DNA of 64,000 nucleotides, taken from contig NZ_FOTD01000011.1 of assembly GCF_900114465.1 (NCBI RefSeq), positions 1 to 64,000 of the forward strand, in the 5' to 3' direction. The translations under genes and the position numbers were made by a program. Below are positions 3,974 to 62,717 of the stretch, one piece after another. The notes below the pieces were generated by a model, which was given only the letters and a program-made list of their open reading frames with translations, was not told the origin of the DNA and searched no databases. Positions within the stretch are counted from its first letter, which is position 1. Every line of letters begins with the position of its first letter. This DNA is from Trichococcus palustris. Lineage in GTDB: Bacteria > Bacillota > Bacilli > Lactobacillales > Aerococcaceae.

Positions 3974-4119
3974 CACGATTCAGTCGAACCCGCGAGCAAT
4001 GCTTGCTTTCATTGCCGCTGTGCTATTCTGGGTTTAAGAGAAGTGGGAATAGGGGTCAGCTGATTTGGAAAAACTGATTTCAATTTACAATTTACAGAAT
4101 AAGCGAGGTGAGATTACTC

Positions 4120-5376
4120 ATGACTGCGGAAATTGGTGTGTTGAATGCAAATGGTCTGGTTTTGGCCGCCGATTCGGCTTTGACGATGGGGAATATCGAG
4201 AACTTTAAAATATTCAATTCCGGTAACAAGATCTTTACGTTAGGATCAAATCACTCCGTTGGCATCATGATCTTTGGCAACATCGATTTTATGGGCATCC
4301 CTTGGGAAATCATCGTCAAAGGGTTTAAAAATAAAATTGGCGATAAATCGTTGGATGAGGTCCAGGATTATTGTACGGAATTTTTCAATTATGTGGCAAA
4401 TATGGATGAAATCTATTCCCCCATTCAGAGTGAAATATTGATATTGGGTTATGCTGAAAGCTTAAAAAGCATATTGGAGAACACGACCTATGAAATGACG
4501 TCCGAAAAATTTAATCTGGAAGATTATCAAAATGCCGTTCAGAGTAAAATACCCGGATTATTAAAGGAAAGCGAAAAGCTAAAGAGCATCACTAAGAAAA
4601 TTACGGTGAAAGCATTCACGGATGCCTACGGTTCTAAGATCGACGTTGTTTTTCAAGAGTTGTTCGACACCATTTTTTTAGGGACGGACATATATAACAA
4701 GATTAAGTTGAGTCTGTATAAAATCATAAGGAATTATTTTTATAGCGACAGCTATTTTCCTGAAATCTATACGGGCCTAGTCATAGCCGGTTTTGGGGAG
4801 CACGAAATCTTCCCCAGTTTATACCAATTTGACATAGCCGGTGTTGTCGACAGGATCATCAAAAAAAGATTGAATGTGATGTCCGTTGTTTCCAATGAGG
4901 ACGTAGAGGGGAAATGCTCATCGGCGATTGTCCCTTTTGCGCAACAGGATATGGTCCATCTGCTCATAAACGGGATATCTCCCGATCTCCAAGATGATTT
5001 AGCGGAGATTTTAAAAGTCAGTTTCGACACCTTCATAAAGGAAGTGTCGACCAAGCAGCTTGTTAAAAAATCCAAGATTGATGAGATCAATAAAATCAGA
5101 TCAGATGTTGAAGCATCGATCTTCGATGCCTTCGATGACGTGAAAAAACAGCGCTATACGGAACCTGTATTGATGATCATCGATTCAATGCCAAAAGAAG
5201 AACTGGCCACACTGGCAGAAACGCTTGTGAATATGACAGCCTTCAAAAGGAGGATTTCCTTGTCGGTGGAAACGGTCGGCGGGCCGGTTGATGTGCTGTT
5301 GATCACAAAAGGTGACGGTCCCGTCTGGGTAAAACGGAAGCATTATTTCGATCCGGATATCAATAGAAAGGATTGA
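4120..5376 (+). CDS. Predicted Ntn-hydrolase with proteasome-type N-terminus
   Basis: A 418-residue soluble protein that standard annotation would probably leave hypothetical. The start is the ATG at 4120 behind GCGAGGTGA; the upstream GTG at 4108 lies in that ribosome binding site. After removal of the initiator Met the chain begins TAEIGVLNANGLVLAADSAL, which fits proteasome beta subunits and HslV: Thr at position 1, the LAADS motif with Asp exactly at 17, and a Lys at 36 (GNKIF; Lys33 in HslV). Further on, AGFGEHEIFPSLYQFDIAG (near residue 225) resembles the proteasome strand motif for an acidic turn, Gly-Pro, Leu-Tyr and Gly. The roughly 150 residues between look helical and would be an insertion. 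I infer a self-processing or Met-aminopeptidase-exposed Thr hydrolase; the substrate is unknown. The gene stands alone. Confidence 0.6.
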   Translation: MTAEIGVLNANGLVLAADSALTMGNIENFKIFNSGNKIFTLGSNHSVGIMIFGNIDFMGIPWEIIVKGFKNKIGDKSLDEVQDYCTEFFNYVANMDEIYSPIQSEILILGYAESLKSILENTTYEMTSEKFNLEDYQNAVQSKIPGLLKESEKLKSITKKITVKAFTDAYGSKIDVVFQELFDTIFLGTDIYNKIKLSLYKIIRNYFYSDSYFPEIYTGLVIAGFGEHEIFPSLYQFDIAGVVDRIIKKRLNVMSVVSNEDVEGKCSSAIVPFAQQDMVHLLINGISPDLQDDLAEILKVSFDTFIKEVSTKQLVKKSKIDEINKIRSDVEASIFDAFDDVKKQRYTEPVLMIIDSMPKEELATLAETLVNMTAFKRRISLSVETVGGPVDVLLITKGDGPVWVKRKHYFDPDINRKD

Positions 5377-7214: not shown

Positions 7215-10200
7215 ATGTCAAAAGAAAAAAGATATTTGACTGTTGATGGAAATACCGCAGCAGCCTACACTTCCTATGCTTTTACGGAAGTCTCAGGTAT
7301 CTATCCCATTACGCCTTCTTCACCCATGGCGGATGCGGTTGACCATTGGGCACAAGAAGGACGCAACAATATATTCGGGCAAACCGTAAAAGTCACGCAG
7401 ATGCAATCCGAAGCCGGGGCAGCCGGCACGGTGCACGGGGCTTTGCAGGCGGGAGCTTTGGCTTGTTCCTATACCTCTTCGCAAGGGTTGTTGTTGATGA
7501 TTCCCGATATGTATAAGATGGCGGGCGAGTTATTGCCGGCGGTTGTCCATGTTGCGGCCCGGGCGGTCGGCAGCCATGCGCTTTCGATTTTCGGCGACCA
7601 TTCGGACGTGATGGCATGCAGACAAACCGGTTTTGCGATGCTGTCATCAGCCAGTGTCCAAGAGGCAACGGATATGGCTGCAGTGGCGCATTTAGCCGCC
7701 ATCAAAGGGCGCATACCTTTTATGCATTTCTTCGATGGCTTCCGCACTTCCCATGAAATTCAAAAGATTGAAGTGCAGGACTATGAGGATTATGCAAAAT
7801 TGCTTGACCGCGATGCCTTGAAAGCTTTCCGGGACCGCAGTTTAAGCCCGAACCACCCGACGATGCGCGGCTCGGCACAGAATCCGGACATCTTTTTCCA
7901 AGGACGCGAAGCTTCCAACAGCTACTACAATGCCATCCCGGAAATTGTCGAAAATTACATGCTAGAAATCAATGAGCTCACGGGCCGCGACTACCATTTG
8001 TTCAATTATTATGGGGCGCCGGATGCCGACAAAGCGATCATTTGCATGGGTTCCGTCTATGATACGGCTTGTGAAGTAGCGGACTATCTGAACAGCCATG
8101 GCGAAAAGGTTGGCGTATTGAACGTCCATCTCTACCGTCCATTCAGCATGGGGCATTTCTTGAAGGCATTGCCTGAAACGGTTAAAAAAATAGCCGTCCT
8201 TGACCGCACCAAAGAATGCGGTTCAATCGGAGAGCCTTTGTTCCTGGATGTCGTGGCTGCATTCAATCAAGTGAAGGATCGCCCGAGCATCATCGGGGGA
8301 CGTTACGGATTGGGCTCAAAAGATACGACACCAAACCAGATCCGTGCCGTCTTCAAAAACTTGGATAAGGAAGAACCGCAGCATCCCTTTACGATCGGCA
8401 TCAACGATGACGTCACGCACCTGTCGCTGGCGATCGAAGAGAAAATCGATGTCCGTCCAGAGGGTACCTTCGAGGCGCAATTCTGGGGCTTCGGTTCAGA
8501 CGGAACAGTCGGGGCAAATAAAAACTCGATCAAAATCATCGGCGACCATACCGATTTGCACGTGCAGGCCTATTTCTCCTATGACTCGAAAAAATCGGGC
8601 GGGGTGACCATCTCGAATCTGCGTTTCGGTAAAGAAGAGATCCATGAACCCTATTTGATTGAGCAAGCGGATTTCGTTGCCTGTCATAACCAAGCGTACG
8701 TCAAAAAGTACGATATGGTGAAGACATTGAAACCCGGCGGCTCGTTCCTGTTGAACACAAACTGGCCCGTCGAAGACTTGGACTCGCGTCTGCCTGCGAA
8801 AATGAAACGCTACATCGCGGATAACGACATCAACTTCTATGTCATCGATGCGATCAACGCCGGCAAAGAGATCGGCTTGGGCGGAAGGATCAACACGATT
8901 TGCCAAGCGGCCTTCTTCAAGATTCTGCCGATCATCCCCTTGGAAGAAGCCGTTCAGCATATGAAAGACGCTGCCAAAAAATCGTATGGACATAAAGGCG
9001 AAAAAATCGTCTTGATGAACGAAAAAGCGATCGAGGCCGGTGTCGAAAGAGTTCAGAAAATCGCAGTTCCGGAAAATTGGAAAGACGCTCAGGATGAACC
9101 GCAGCCAATCAAGGATGAGCCTGACTTCGTCAAAAATATCGCTGATATGATGAACCGCATGGAAGGGGATCAATTACCGGTCAGCGCCTTCTTGGATCGC
9201 GCCGATGGCACCTTCCCGCAAGGAACAACGCAATTCGAGAAACGTGAAATCGCCGTTCAGATTCCGATCTGGAATCCGGAAGAGTGCATCCAATGCAACC
9301 AATGCTCGTTTGTTTGCCCACATGCAGCCATTCGTCCGTTCCTGGTGACGGAAGAAGAGGCCGCAAATGCTCCGGAAGGGATGGGATTTATCGACGGGAT
9401 GCGTCCGTATAAAGATTCCAAGTATCGTATCCAAGTGTCGGCGGCCGATTGCACAGGCTGCGGTATTTGCGTCTTGACCTGTCCGGCGCGCAAAAAAGCG
9501 ATCGAAATGCGGAACCGCGAAGATCATTTGGAAGAAAACGAAAACTGGGATTACATGATCCGTTTGCCGCATAAGGAAAATCCTGTAGGAACGAACACGG
9601 TGAAAGGCAGCCAGTTCGAACAACCTTTGTTTGAATTCTCCGGTGCTTGTGCCGGATGCGGCGAGACACCTTACATCAAATTAGCGACGCAAGTGGTTGG
9701 CGACCGCATGCAGATCGCCAATGCGACGGGCTGCACGTCCATCTATGGCGGATCGGCGCCTTCAGCGCCTTACACAACCAATGACAAGGGCTTTGGGCCT
9801 TCATGGGCTAACTCGCTTTTGGAGGATAATGCCGAATTTGGCTTCGGGATGCATCATGCAACCAAGCAACTGCGTGAAAGAACGCTCGGCTTGGCGCTTC
9901 AATTATTGAAACAAGAGATCGATGAAGACTTGAGAGTGCCTACGCAGGCTTGGGTCGACGGATTCAACGAAAAACGCGGCGCCCGCAATCTGGCGGCGGC
10001 GTTCAGCGAAGCATTGGAGGCTGTGCAAACAGCCGACCAAAACGTACAAAATTTGGTCAGCGATATCCTGCAATACAAAGACTATCTGATGAAACGTTCC
10101 ACTTGGATGTTCGGTGGCGATGGTTGGGCCTACGATATCGACTTCGGCGGCATCGACCATGTGTTGGCGAGCGGAGAAGATATCAATATCCTTGTGCTCG

Positions 10201-10754
10201 ATACGGAAGTGTATTCGAACACAGGTGGACAAGTATCCAAGTCTTCCAACATCGGTGCGATTGCGGAATTCGCTTCCGGCGGAAAACCGGTCAAGAAGAA
10301 AGACCTGGGCATGATGATGATGAATTACGGCTATGTCTATGTAGCGCAAATAGCGATGGGGGCAAACCCTCGCCATACCTTGAAGGTCCTTTCCGAGGCG
10401 GAAGCTTATGATGGTCCGTCCATCGTCATCGCCTATTCACCGTGCATCAATCATGGCATCAAGTGCGGCCTGACGGTTTCACAGAGTCATGAAAAGGATG
10501 CAGTGGATGTCGGCTATTGGCATTTGTATCGCTTCAATCCGGAAGACAAAGCAAAAGGCAAAAATCCGTTTACACTGGATTCAAAAGAGCCACAATTTGA
10601 ACGATTCCAGGATTTCCTGATGGAAGAAGTCCGGTATTCTTCGCTCTATAATCTCTACGATGCAGAGCATGTTCAGAACATTTTTGACCATGGCTTGGAA
10701 TCCGCCAAAGACCGTTACCAATCATACGTACGGATGGCTTCCTACACAGATTAA
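7215..10754 (+). CDS. nifJ: Pyruvate:ferredoxin (flavodoxin) oxidoreductase
   Basis: A 1179-residue single-chain enzyme that oxidises pyruvate and CoA to acetyl-CoA and CO2 and reduces ferredoxin or flavodoxin. Domains run in the usual order: the N-terminal pyruvate-binding domain (YPITPSSPMAD near residue 30, MQSEAGAAGTVHGALQAGA near 65), the gamma-type domain in the middle, a two-cluster ferredoxin domain (CIQCNQCSFVCP near 695 and CTGCGICVLTCP near 750), a cluster-binding CAGCGE near 815, and the thiamine diphosphate domain (GDGWAYDIDFGG near 970 and DTEVYSNTGGQVSKS near 995). Length is normal and no catalytic motif is missing. The ATG follows GAGAAGGAA. It implies anaerobic pyruvate metabolism with reduced ferredoxin as product. 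A large structured RNA begins right behind its stop codon. Confidence 0.97.
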   Translation: MSKEKRYLTVDGNTAAAYTSYAFTEVSGIYPITPSSPMADAVDHWAQEGRNNIFGQTVKVTQMQSEAGAAGTVHGALQAGALACSYTSSQGLLLMIPDMYKMAGELLPAVVHVAARAVGSHALSIFGDHSDVMACRQTGFAMLSSASVQEATDMAAVAHLAAIKGRIPFMHFFDGFRTSHEIQKIEVQDYEDYAKLLDRDALKAFRDRSLSPNHPTMRGSAQNPDIFFQGREASNSYYNAIPEIVENYMLEINELTGRDYHLFNYYGAPDADKAIICMGSVYDTACEVADYLNSHGEKVGVLNVHLYRPFSMGHFLKALPETVKKIAVLDRTKECGSIGEPLFLDVVAAFNQVKDRPSIIGGRYGLGSKDTTPNQIRAVFKNLDKEEPQHPFTIGINDDVTHLSLAIEEKIDVRPEGTFEAQFWGFGSDGTVGANKNSIKIIGDHTDLHVQAYFSYDSKKSGGVTISNLRFGKEEIHEPYLIEQADFVACHNQAYVKKYDMVKTLKPGGSFLLNTNWPVEDLDSRLPAKMKRYIADNDINFYVIDAINAGKEIGLGGRINTICQAAFFKILPIIPLEEAVQHMKDAAKKSYGHKGEKIVLMNEKAIEAGVERVQKIAVPENWKDAQDEPQPIKDEPDFVKNIADMMNRMEGDQLPVSAFLDRADGTFPQGTTQFEKREIAVQIPIWNPEECIQCNQCSFVCPHAAIRPFLVTEEEAANAPEGMGFIDGMRPYKDSKYRIQVSAADCTGCGICVLTCPARKKAIEMRNREDHLEENENWDYMIRLPHKENPVGTNTVKGSQFEQPLFEFSGACAGCGETPYIKLATQVVGDRMQIANATGCTSIYGGSAPSAPYTTNDKGFGPSWANSLLEDNAEFGFGMHHATKQLRERTLGLALQLLKQEIDEDLRVPTQAWVDGFNEKRGARNLAAAFSEALEAVQTADQNVQNLVSDILQYKDYLMKRSTWMFGGDGWAYDIDFGGIDHVLASGEDINILVLDTEVYSNTGGQVSKSSNIGAIAEFASGGKPVKKKDLGMMMMNYGYVYVAQIAMGANPRHTLKVLSEAEAYDGPSIVIAYSPCINHGIKCGLTVSQSHEKDAVDVGYWHLYRFNPEDKAKGKNPFTLDSKEPQFERFQDFLMEEVRYSSLYNLYDAEHVQNIFDHGLESAKDRYQSYVRMASYTD

Positions 10755-10763
10755 TATAAGAAA

Positions 10764-11256
10764 AGCGAGACAAGCCCGCTCTGCTTCGATTAAGGAAACA
10801 CAGTGACCTTGACGGTCAAGTACTCTGATGTCACAGTGCGACATCAGAGGGCCTCACTGCGAGACATTTTGGATAGTCTGATAACAGGATTAAGCGATTG
10901 AAATCGCAAGAGTCATGACAATTTAGGAAATTTGGAAGGGGGCAACGCTCCTTACAGTCGCCTTGTACGGGTAGTCTAAAGAATGAATTCTTAAGACTAC
11001 CATGCAAATGAGCATCGTAGAGCGCAATTGCTGAGAGACTTCTAAATTCAGTGGAATCAACGTGACCGTACCGGTCAGTTGTATCATGTTTCTAAGTCAT
11101 CAGAGATGACAAGAACCATGACAAGTCGAACAGTATGTCTTGGCTCGCAGAGACAAGAGGACCCTTCATCTCCCTTCCTTGAGGCAGGCTTGGATCGCTA
11201 GACATCAATTAATAGAAAGAGCTCCTGGCGGAAGGAATTTCGCTGGGATTTTTTTT
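10764..11256 (+). ncRNA. Candidate large structured non-coding RNA
   Basis: About 490 bases without a credible gene but with dense, mostly perfect base pairing. AGCGA-GAC-AAGCC (10764-10776) pairs with GGCTT-GGA-TCGCT (11187-11199), a long-range stem that closes the whole structure. Inside are CAGTGA/TCACTG (10801-10806/10854-10859) enclosing a perfect 10-bp hairpin (10823-10832/10840-10849), GCGATTGAAATCGC (10894-10907), GGTAGTCT/AGACTACC (10970-11001), TGACCG/CGGTCA (11063-11077) and GTCATC/GATGAC (11096-11110). An intrinsic terminator at 11224-11256 ends it. It matches none of the RNase P, tmRNA, SRP or 6S signatures I know. It could belong to the large ornate RNA classes (ROOL, GOLLD) or be new. 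No clear own promoter is seen, so it may be cleaved from the nifJ transcript. Confidence 0.65.
11224..11256 (+). terminator. Terminator of the structured RNA
   Basis: CCTGGCGGAA (11224-11233) pairs with TTTCGCTGGG (11238-11247) over ten positions including G-U pairs, followed by A and eight T residues. Confidence 0.8.
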
Positions 11257-11306
11257 GAGCGAGCAGACTGTTTCAGGGTGCAAAATATATTTCAACGGGG
11301 TTGCCC

Positions 11307-11445: not shown

Positions 11446-11646
11446 ATGGAACAAGGTACAGTAAAATGGTTTAACGCAGACAAAGGTTTTGGATTTATCG
11501 AACGCGAAAGCGGAGACGATGTATTCGTACATTTCTCAGCTATCCAATCTGAAGGATTCAAATCTTTAGAAGAAGGCCAAGCAGTAACTTTCAGCGTTGA
11601 AGAAGGTAACCGTGGACCTCAAGCTACAAACGTTAACAAAGCTTAA
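11446..11646 (+). CDS. Cold-shock protein, CspA family
   Basis: A 66-residue single OB-fold domain that binds single-stranded RNA or DNA and acts as an RNA chaperone. Both nucleic acid binding motifs are present: RNP1 as KGFGFIER (residues 16-23) and RNP2 as VFVHF (near 28-32). The protein is nearly identical to that encoded at 16362-16562, differing at only a few positions. The start follows AGGAGGAATTTTATT. It is monocistronic between its own promoter and terminator. Confidence 0.96.
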
Positions 11647-16247: not shown

Positions 16248-16361
16248 AAGTTTAACATTTTGTTAGTGAGTGAAAGAAAAGAATTGTTTAAGAGACATTC
16301 CAATCCGTAACGTTAGCAATAATGTATGATATGTGCGAAACGCACGAGGAGGAATTTAATT

Positions 16362-16562
16362 ATGGAAAAAGGTACAGTTAAATGGTTTAATGCAGAAAAA
16401 GGTTTTGGTTTCATCGAACGCGAAAACGGAGACGATGTATTCGTACATTTCTCAGCTATCCAATCTGAAGGTTTCAAATCTTTAGAAGAAGGACAAGCAG
16501 TAACTTTCGACGTTGAAGAAGGTAACCGTGGACCTCAAGCATCAAACGTTCAAAAAGCTTAA
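16362..16562 (+). CDS. Cold-shock protein, CspA family (second copy)
   Basis: A 66-residue OB-fold RNA chaperone with RNP1 KGFGFIER and RNP2 VFVHF. It differs from the copy at 11446-11646 by only a few substitutions, for example Lys for Gln at residue 3 and Asp for Ser in the TFDVEEG segment. The ATG at 16362 is chosen because AGGAGGAATTTAATT precedes it; the longer frame from 16326 runs through that site. Promoter, leader and terminator are also shared with the first copy, so this is a duplication of the whole transcription unit, about 4.9 kb apart. Confidence 0.95.
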
Positions 16563-22143: not shown

Positions 22144-22554
22144 GTGATAGCTTTAGCAGAAGTCAAACAGGGTCGAGGGTATATCTATTCCTTGCAGTTC
22201 CATTTGGTTTGGTGTGTAAAGTACAGGCGTAAAGTTCTAGTAAATCAAGTAGAGCAATCACTCAAACAAATCGTGCGAGACATCTGTGCTGCACAAGAGA
22301 TTAAAGTGGAAGAAATGGAAACGGATAAAGACCATATCCACCTTCTCATTTCAATGAAACCGCAACACTATATACCATCGGTAGTTACAACGCTCAAAGG
22401 TCAATCAGCAAGACGACTGTTCAAACAGCACCCCGAAATAAAGCAATACTTTTGGGGTGGACACATGTGGAATCCTAGCTATTTCATTGCGACACTCAGC
22501 GAAAATACTGAGGAACAGGTACGGGAATACATCCAGAGCCAACGACAAAAATGA
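22144..22554 (+). CDS. tnpA: IS200/IS605 transposase TnpA (Y1 HUH)
   Basis: A 136-residue HUH single-strand transposase. The two metal-binding histidines are in DHIHLLISM (near residue 63) and the nucleophilic tyrosine is in WNPSYFIATLSENT (near 117), followed by the C-terminal helix. Length is typical for the family and no frame is broken, so the element may be active. It starts at a GTG with hardly any spacing to its promoter and no clear ribosome binding site, which fits the low expression usual for such transposases. The tnpB gene follows at once. Confidence 0.93.
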   Translation: MIALAEVKQGRGYIYSLQFHLVWCVKYRRKVLVNQVEQSLKQIVRDICAAQEIKVEEMETDKDHIHLLISMKPQHYIPSVVTTLKGQSARRLFKQHPEIKQYFWGGHMWNPSYFIATLSENTEEQVREYIQSQRQK

Positions 22555-62463: not shown

Positions 62464-62717
62464 AAATATATGAAACTTTGATGAGATAAGTAGTTGAGAA
62501 AGAAACCACAGAGAGTCTGCGAACGGTGAGAGCAGATGTTTCGGCATTAGCGAAAATGGTCTTTGAGTTATCACGTGTGAGGGAAACTTAGCAGGTGACG
62601 GGTACGCCCGTTAGAGCGTGGAGGGATGATAGTCCCTTGCAGAGATAATCTTTTTGATTATGAATTAAGGTGGTAACGCGAGCATTCGCCCTTTCGATAG
62701 GGGGAGTGCTTTTTTTT
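62464..62717 (+). promoter_or_regulatory. T-box riboswitch, probably methionine-specific
   Basis: A tRNA-sensing leader. Stem I features are ACAGAGAG (from about 62507) and the GGTGAGAG segment (62525). The conserved TTTGAGT lies at 62562-62568, with the candidate specifier ATG at 62556-62558. The T-box core AAGGTGGTAACGCGAG stands at 62667-62682. The terminator AGCATTCGCCC with GGGGGAGTGCT and eight T ends at 62717. When uncharged tRNA binds, the antiterminator forms and the permease gene is read. The Met codon is inferred from its position and agrees with the mmuP-like gene behind it. Confidence 0.88.

Follow-up and report, generated by a model that had tools for sequence, protein, structure and literature searches.

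The structured, gene-free stretch behind nifJ in Trichococcus palustris is very probably one copy of a dispersed, non-coding and non-autonomous mobile palindromic repeat of the EFAR/BOX/MITE kind. The repeat consists of a matched pair of ends, which form a closing helix, and of optional hairpin modules that occupy recurrent slots between them. Its sites have been gained or lost between Trichococcus species, as filled and empty sites show. What had been put forward in an earlier note as a candidate new RNA class is now a testable account, and the case carries a warning: mobile palindromes can yield strong folds together with covariation. Filled and empty sites among genomes that are near-identical elsewhere, matched ends and modules common to different repeat contexts make Trichococcus well suited to finding the mobiliser.

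The copy behind nifJ

The window, by which we mean the whole 64,000-nt stretch of DNA analysed, lies on contig NZ_FOTD01000011.1 of the T. palustris assembly GCF_900114465.1, and its features are collected in Table 1. The earlier note had named the flanking genes as nifJ and a cold-shock gene, and the profile matches confirm both. The stop codon of nifJ abuts the left edge of the repeat. The note had also ended its RNA with an intrinsic terminator; this terminator is real, but the repeat stops at about 11207 and the terminator lies outside it. Three of the four open reading frames of at least 50 aa that overlap the stretch were compared with Pfam, all but the one at 10570-10773 on the minus strand, and none had a match. 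The plus strand between 10600 and 11500 showed no promoter-like site, and transcription from nifJ likely reads through into the repeat.

Table 1. Features of the repeat copy and its neighbours in the window
Feature	Position	Strand	Evidence
nifJ, pyruvate:ferredoxin (flavodoxin) oxidoreductase	7215..10754	+	profile match TIGR02176
Entire copy of the repeat, with type-1 ends, long module A, the core and module B carrying the insert	10756..11207	+	BLAST limits of the family, tails of other copies
5' end, type 1 (ATAAGAAAAGCGAGACAAGCCCGCTCTGCTTCGA), 5' arm of closing helix	10756..10789	+	
Intrinsic-terminator-like hairpin and T-run at left edge	10762..10782	-	
Module A, long form	10790..10927	+	
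Segment separating long from short module A, hairpin 10823-10849	10822..10890	+	
Core: most widely shared motif AACGyTCC..GTCrCCTTGTAC, covarying hairpin 10970-11001	10927..11042	+	
Module B insert, itself a second, diverged module A	11043..11123	+	
Remainder of module B (GTCGAACAGTATGTCTTG and hairpin)	11124..11174	+	
3' end, type 1 (GAGGCAGGCTTGGATCGCT), 3' arm of closing helix	11175..11207	+	
Host intrinsic terminator adjoining the repeat, outside it	11223..11256	+	
Cold-shock domain gene	11446..11646	+	PF00313

Several other features of the window deserve mention. A second cold-shock gene at 16326-16562 is very similar to the one at 11446-11646, about 5 kb away, and a T-box leader (RF00230) lies at 62469-62696 on the plus strand. 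By eye, a gene upstream of nifJ (4108-5376) is similar to one found directly downstream of nifJ in congeners. Gene order around nifJ appears to have changed between the window and its congeners.

The nested helices described in the earlier note go well beyond chance. The minimum free energy of 10755-11260 is -174.5 kcal/mol, whereas 100 shuffles gave -135.8 +/- 6.2 kcal/mol and none was as low (z -6.2). All the named helices are in the sequence. AGCGA..CAAGCC at 10764-10776 pairs with GGCTTG..TCGCT at 11187-11199 to form the closing stem, the CAGTGA/TCACTG pair joins 10801-10806 to 10854-10859, and local hairpins are present at 10823-10849, 10970-11001 and elsewhere in the stretch. The reverse complement folds as strongly as the plus strand (z -6.7), as a DNA palindrome would. 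The note had seen no known RNA signature, and the Rfam search agreed: no family reached its gathering score within the stretch, and E values up to 10 brought only two snoRNA models, both on the minus strand and outside the folded part.

The repeat is spread throughout the genus. With a 506-base query and the best 10 or fewer candidates per genome scored, matches were found in 16 of 60 genomes: in T. palustris itself and all 12 other Trichococcus genomes, in none of 23 genomes from other genera of the family, and in three of 24 from other families of the order. The T. palustris genome holds at least 86 pieces among the best 40 of 55 first-look candidates; joining pieces no more than 400 bases apart chains them into at least 40 places, a lower bound. 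An order-wide search, scoring the best two or fewer candidates per genome, matched 22 of 395 genomes, 11 of them Trichococcus and 11 in two other families. Scanning genome contigs for an exact 18-base pattern gave 23 stretches, 21 in Trichococcus; the other two, from other phyla, had a context unlike the repeat and were taken as chance. Four contigs of the T. palustris assembly stop inside or just past a copy (L036, L037, L042 and L050). The window repeat had no match in phage and plasmid collections at E 1e-5, and a search of the open-access literature found no paper on Trichococcus repeats.

This distribution bears directly on the suggestion in the earlier note that the stretch is a large RNA recalling ROOL, GOLLD or OLE. 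The size, the complex fold and the lack of an Rfam match would all suit a new class of large non-coding RNA behind nifJ. Such a class is scarcely credible, however, for a sequence found at 40 dispersed places per genome with variable modules. The note had also proposed to look for homologues behind nifJ in relatives, and it is there that the repeat is missing: only one of 13 nifJ loci carries it, and none of the 12 congeners has it at E 1e-6.

Matched ends and modules

We analysed 60 distinct copies in which both ends were recognisable, leaving out copies with unrecognised ends and loci of other genera; the set includes some orthologues, so that not all copies are independent. The two end types were always matched (60 of 60 copies), 21 copies having type 1 ends and 39 type 2. 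In both types the 5' and 3' arms are complementary and can form a closing helix, and the internal modules occur behind either type. These modules are optional. Module A may be absent, short or long, the core may be present or absent, and module B may be standard, carry the insert or give way to a short form. A 3' tail of roughly 90-100 bases is found in 41 of the 60 copies, three of 44 tail matches (L012, L019 and L097) having been dropped because they fell in other sequence; the window copy has no tail.

Scoring modules by presence gave 24 patterns in the 60 copies, with an unresolved label in four. As presence labels ignore the slot in which a module sits, the recount was made by slot, and this gave 28 patterns in the 60 copies, 20 of them fully resolved for end type and internal modules. 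Orthologous copies differ from one another by whole modules (L002 and L023, L019 and L022, L005 and L025).

Some observations come from outside the 60-copy set or from outside the element altogether. By eye, one further locus (L038, on contig C40 of genome G000) has an apparent third pair of mutually fitting ends. Module A was seen, again by eye, in an apparently unrelated large repeat context in the same genome (L200, L201 and L209, on contigs C25, C12 and C40), and genomes of another family in the order have it on its own, with no other part of the element (L015 in G036 and L123 in G145). The presence of module A in another repeat context and in another family suggests that modules travel on their own.

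It is possible, if unlikely, that the repeats form a community of DNA hairpin cassettes, each mobile in its own right. Matched ends would hold the slots, small modules would insert and swap, and the same module would move from one repeat family to another, unrelated one and across bacterial families, with a trans-acting enzyme recognising terminator-like hairpins. If so, this would be a modular mobile element that is guided by structure and carries no genes.

Sites, terminators and pairing

Filled and empty sites could be compared at two further genes. At an azoreductase-like gene, four of 11 genomes carry a copy and seven do not, and an empty genome (G006) and a filled one (G011) are 97% identical over 600 bases past the terminator. 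At a universal-stress-like (Usp) gene, with weak family scores, a copy lies on the near side of the terminator in two of 13 genomes, one of them cut by a contig end, an inverted copy lies on the far side in three, and eight have none. Here G006 is filled and G012 empty, 697 bases at the site being 99.6% identical between them; at nifJ the same two genomes are 100% identical over 1012 bases. At one locus (L221 in G001, the site of L003) the stop codon of the Usp-like gene now lies inside the repeat and its last residues are altered.

At the filled sites that we read, the spacer had been replaced and the terminator hairpin retained. Because the spacer is replaced, gain and loss are not separable site by site. 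By eye, neither of the two sites read showed a clean target-site duplication. A terminator comes after nifJ in all 12 congeners; the next gene, where seen, differs from that in the window, so these loci are not strict empty sites.

Under a simple open reading frame rule, the genes flanking the 60 copies were convergent in 22 cases, divergent in six and co-directional in 13 and 15, with no gene on one side in four. Convergent flanks are in excess over divergent ones (p 0.004), and copies between co-directional genes show no preference for either orientation. A plus-strand gene has its stop codon no more than 20 nt from the left edge in 27 of the 60 copies. The left edge itself has a minus-strand terminator in 48 of 60, against 2.05 expected in shuffles. 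To the right of the 3' end, 31 of 60 copies have a terminator on either strand no more than 170 nt away, and 29, by the same rule, have none; minus-strand terminators number 25 (1.2 expected) and plus-strand terminators 16 (3.2 expected).

The frequency of the left-edge terminator and the excess of convergent flanks are also what might be seen if the host had co-opted the repeat as a bidirectional terminator or insulator and retained it against read-through between convergent genes. This seems unlikely as an explanation of the repeat, as congeners have a plain terminator and no repeat at the same sites, and the large internal modules would be superfluous for that role. Such a role can instead be a side effect of a mobile repeat rather than an alternative to it.

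Covariation, which the earlier note had proposed as a check, is present between copies of the repeat, both in the core and at the ends. In the core hairpin region, compared across 47 copies, six of 15 predicted pairs changed on both sides. In a 30-copy alignment 11 of 43 pairs did so, but nine of these are in the closing helix, where they come mainly from the switch between end types and may be one event.

If pairing were kept for the RNA fold of the plus strand, G-U pairs would be tolerated more than A-C pairs in the helices. In oriented copies, counted over distinct hairpin sequences, departures from Watson-Crick pairing were 22 G-U against 23 A-C, which suggests no strand preference. An automated count gave 6 G-U to 4 A-C column types in each of two alignments (12 to 8 in total) and 24 to 9 cells in the two together. 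The same method applied to RNase P RNA of the family, using 30 of the 60 matching genomes, gave 30 to 11 column types and 82 to 27 cells, and like for like the repeats did not differ significantly from RNase P (p 0.38 and 0.82). The counts are thus compatible both with a constrained RNA and with a DNA palindrome. RNase P RNA from Trichococcus alone had no departures in seven distinct rows and was uninformative as a control.

These results frame the question of whether the repeat is a functional structured RNA domain, a 3' UTR element or sRNA that has spread across Trichococcus and is conserved because of its fold as RNA. The strength of the fold, the covarying helices, the 27 copies directly behind a sense-strand stop codon and the likeness of the automated G-U to A-C ratio to that of RNase P RNA all speak for such a domain. 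We nevertheless find it unlikely. The fold is equal on both strands, G-U and A-C departures balance in the oriented count, and orientation is indifferent between co-directional genes. Genomes with near-identical sequence at two other loci differ in whether they carry a copy, modules differ at one and the same site, and the window copy has no plus-strand promoter-like site nearby.

Returning to the mobile palindromic repeat, it seems likely that copies would spread by insertion beside terminator hairpins. Insertion would probably proceed via a hairpin DNA intermediate, either single-stranded or cruciform, with an enzyme acting in trans. Modules may be gained, lost and swapped through nested insertion and through recombination between copies, and pairing would be maintained because DNA hairpins are what is recognised. 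Terminators on one side of the copies, a left edge that itself looks like a terminator, and insertion on both sides of a single terminator suggest that the target is DNA with a hairpin and T-run. When read through, the repeat would become the 3' UTR of the preceding gene, and its left edge could terminate antisense transcription.

We looked for the mobiliser among IS200-type transposases, which are present in 12 of the 13 Trichococcus genomes. Comparing the repeats with nine IS200-type loci gave 132 BLAST lines. Twenty fell on a repeat piece at the edge of one locus (L133), about 1.5 kb from the IS200-type transposase, and the other 112 were short and weak (best E 0.004). With no similarity to the repeat ends at these nine loci, the IS200-type transposase was rejected as the mobiliser, and no autonomous relative sharing the ends was found among them. 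The window has an IS200-type transposase of its own at 22183-22542 on the plus strand (PF01797), 3' of which is what we take to be the start of a TnpB-like gene.

Relatives and known palindromic repeats

Outside Trichococcus, an unannotated record assigned to an Enterococcus faecalis phage contains a repeat beside a terminator, in which 26 of 28 core bases are those of the Trichococcus core. The core alignment scored 46, whereas 60 shuffles reached no more than 35, and beyond the core no similarity was detected between the two repeats. The DNA of this record is 96% identical to genome G302 over 447 bases, and we infer that it is probably E. faecalis chromosomal DNA.

The same core motif, with another hairpin, was seen in tandem arrays of units of about 80 bases in a second family, probably Enterococcaceae (L124-L127). 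An array query found the tandem-array core in 33 of 98 genomes, and the Enterococcus array L126 had no plasmid match and matched three records in the phage collection. At two loci (L016 and L120) a tiny open reading frame that looks like a membrane protein, and presumably resembles type I toxin peptides, begins shortly downstream of the core motif.

The closest described systems appear to be enterococcal. EFAR elements are reportedly 42-650 bp long, vary in length through the assembly of 16 sequence types, and insert at stem-loop targets that are partly removed; we know of no mobiliser for EFAR. The length of the Trichococcus repeat, as is said of EFAR, varies by the assembly of modules, the 60 copies showing at least 20 resolved combinations. 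The stem-loop targeting attributed to EFAR can be set beside the terminator that 31 of 60 Trichococcus copies have close to their 3' end, the replaced spacer and the terminator hairpin that is kept.

Efa-1 of E. faecalis is described as 163 nt long, with 65 intergenic members and, on either strand, a predicted pair of neighbouring stem-loops (PMC2267715). EFAR is listed among bacterial MITEs in PMC3733652, where De Gregorio et al. 2009 (FEMS Microbiol Lett 292:7) is cited, and is not mentioned in PMC10969869, a review of bacterial MITEs. The Trichococcus repeat is, like EFAR and Efa-1, multicopy, intergenic, palindromic and without coding capacity. Unlike them, as far as descriptions can be compared, it has matched, exchangeable ends and carries module A in two slots. 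The Trichococcus repeat is probably related to the described enterococcal palindromic repeats, with EFAR and Efa-1 compared by description only.

Seen as a MITE, the Trichococcus repeat has complementary ends, and an autonomous partner was not found among the nine IS200-type loci. It shares with REPs and BIMEs, elements linked to IS200-like transposases (PMC3733652, PMC2817692), its palindromic structure, its intergenic position and its many copies, and IS200-type transposases are present in Trichococcus. However, it is longer than a REP, for which PMC3733652 gives 20-40 bp, and at the nine IS200-type loci compared no association of its ends with the transposase was found.

BOX of Streptococcus pneumoniae offers a further parallel. 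According to PMC3049150, BOX is built from boxA-boxB-boxC, is structured and 67-637 bp long, contains nested repeat insertions, and varies in module number between strains. It is more frequent between convergent genes, and this enrichment is read there as a sign of mobile, parasitic repeats. What sets BOX apart from the Trichococcus repeat is its description as having terminal inverted repeats, an inner module in tandem and duplications of the target site (PMC3049150). The likeness, drawn from descriptions, is that both are modular, structured repeats found in excess between convergent genes.
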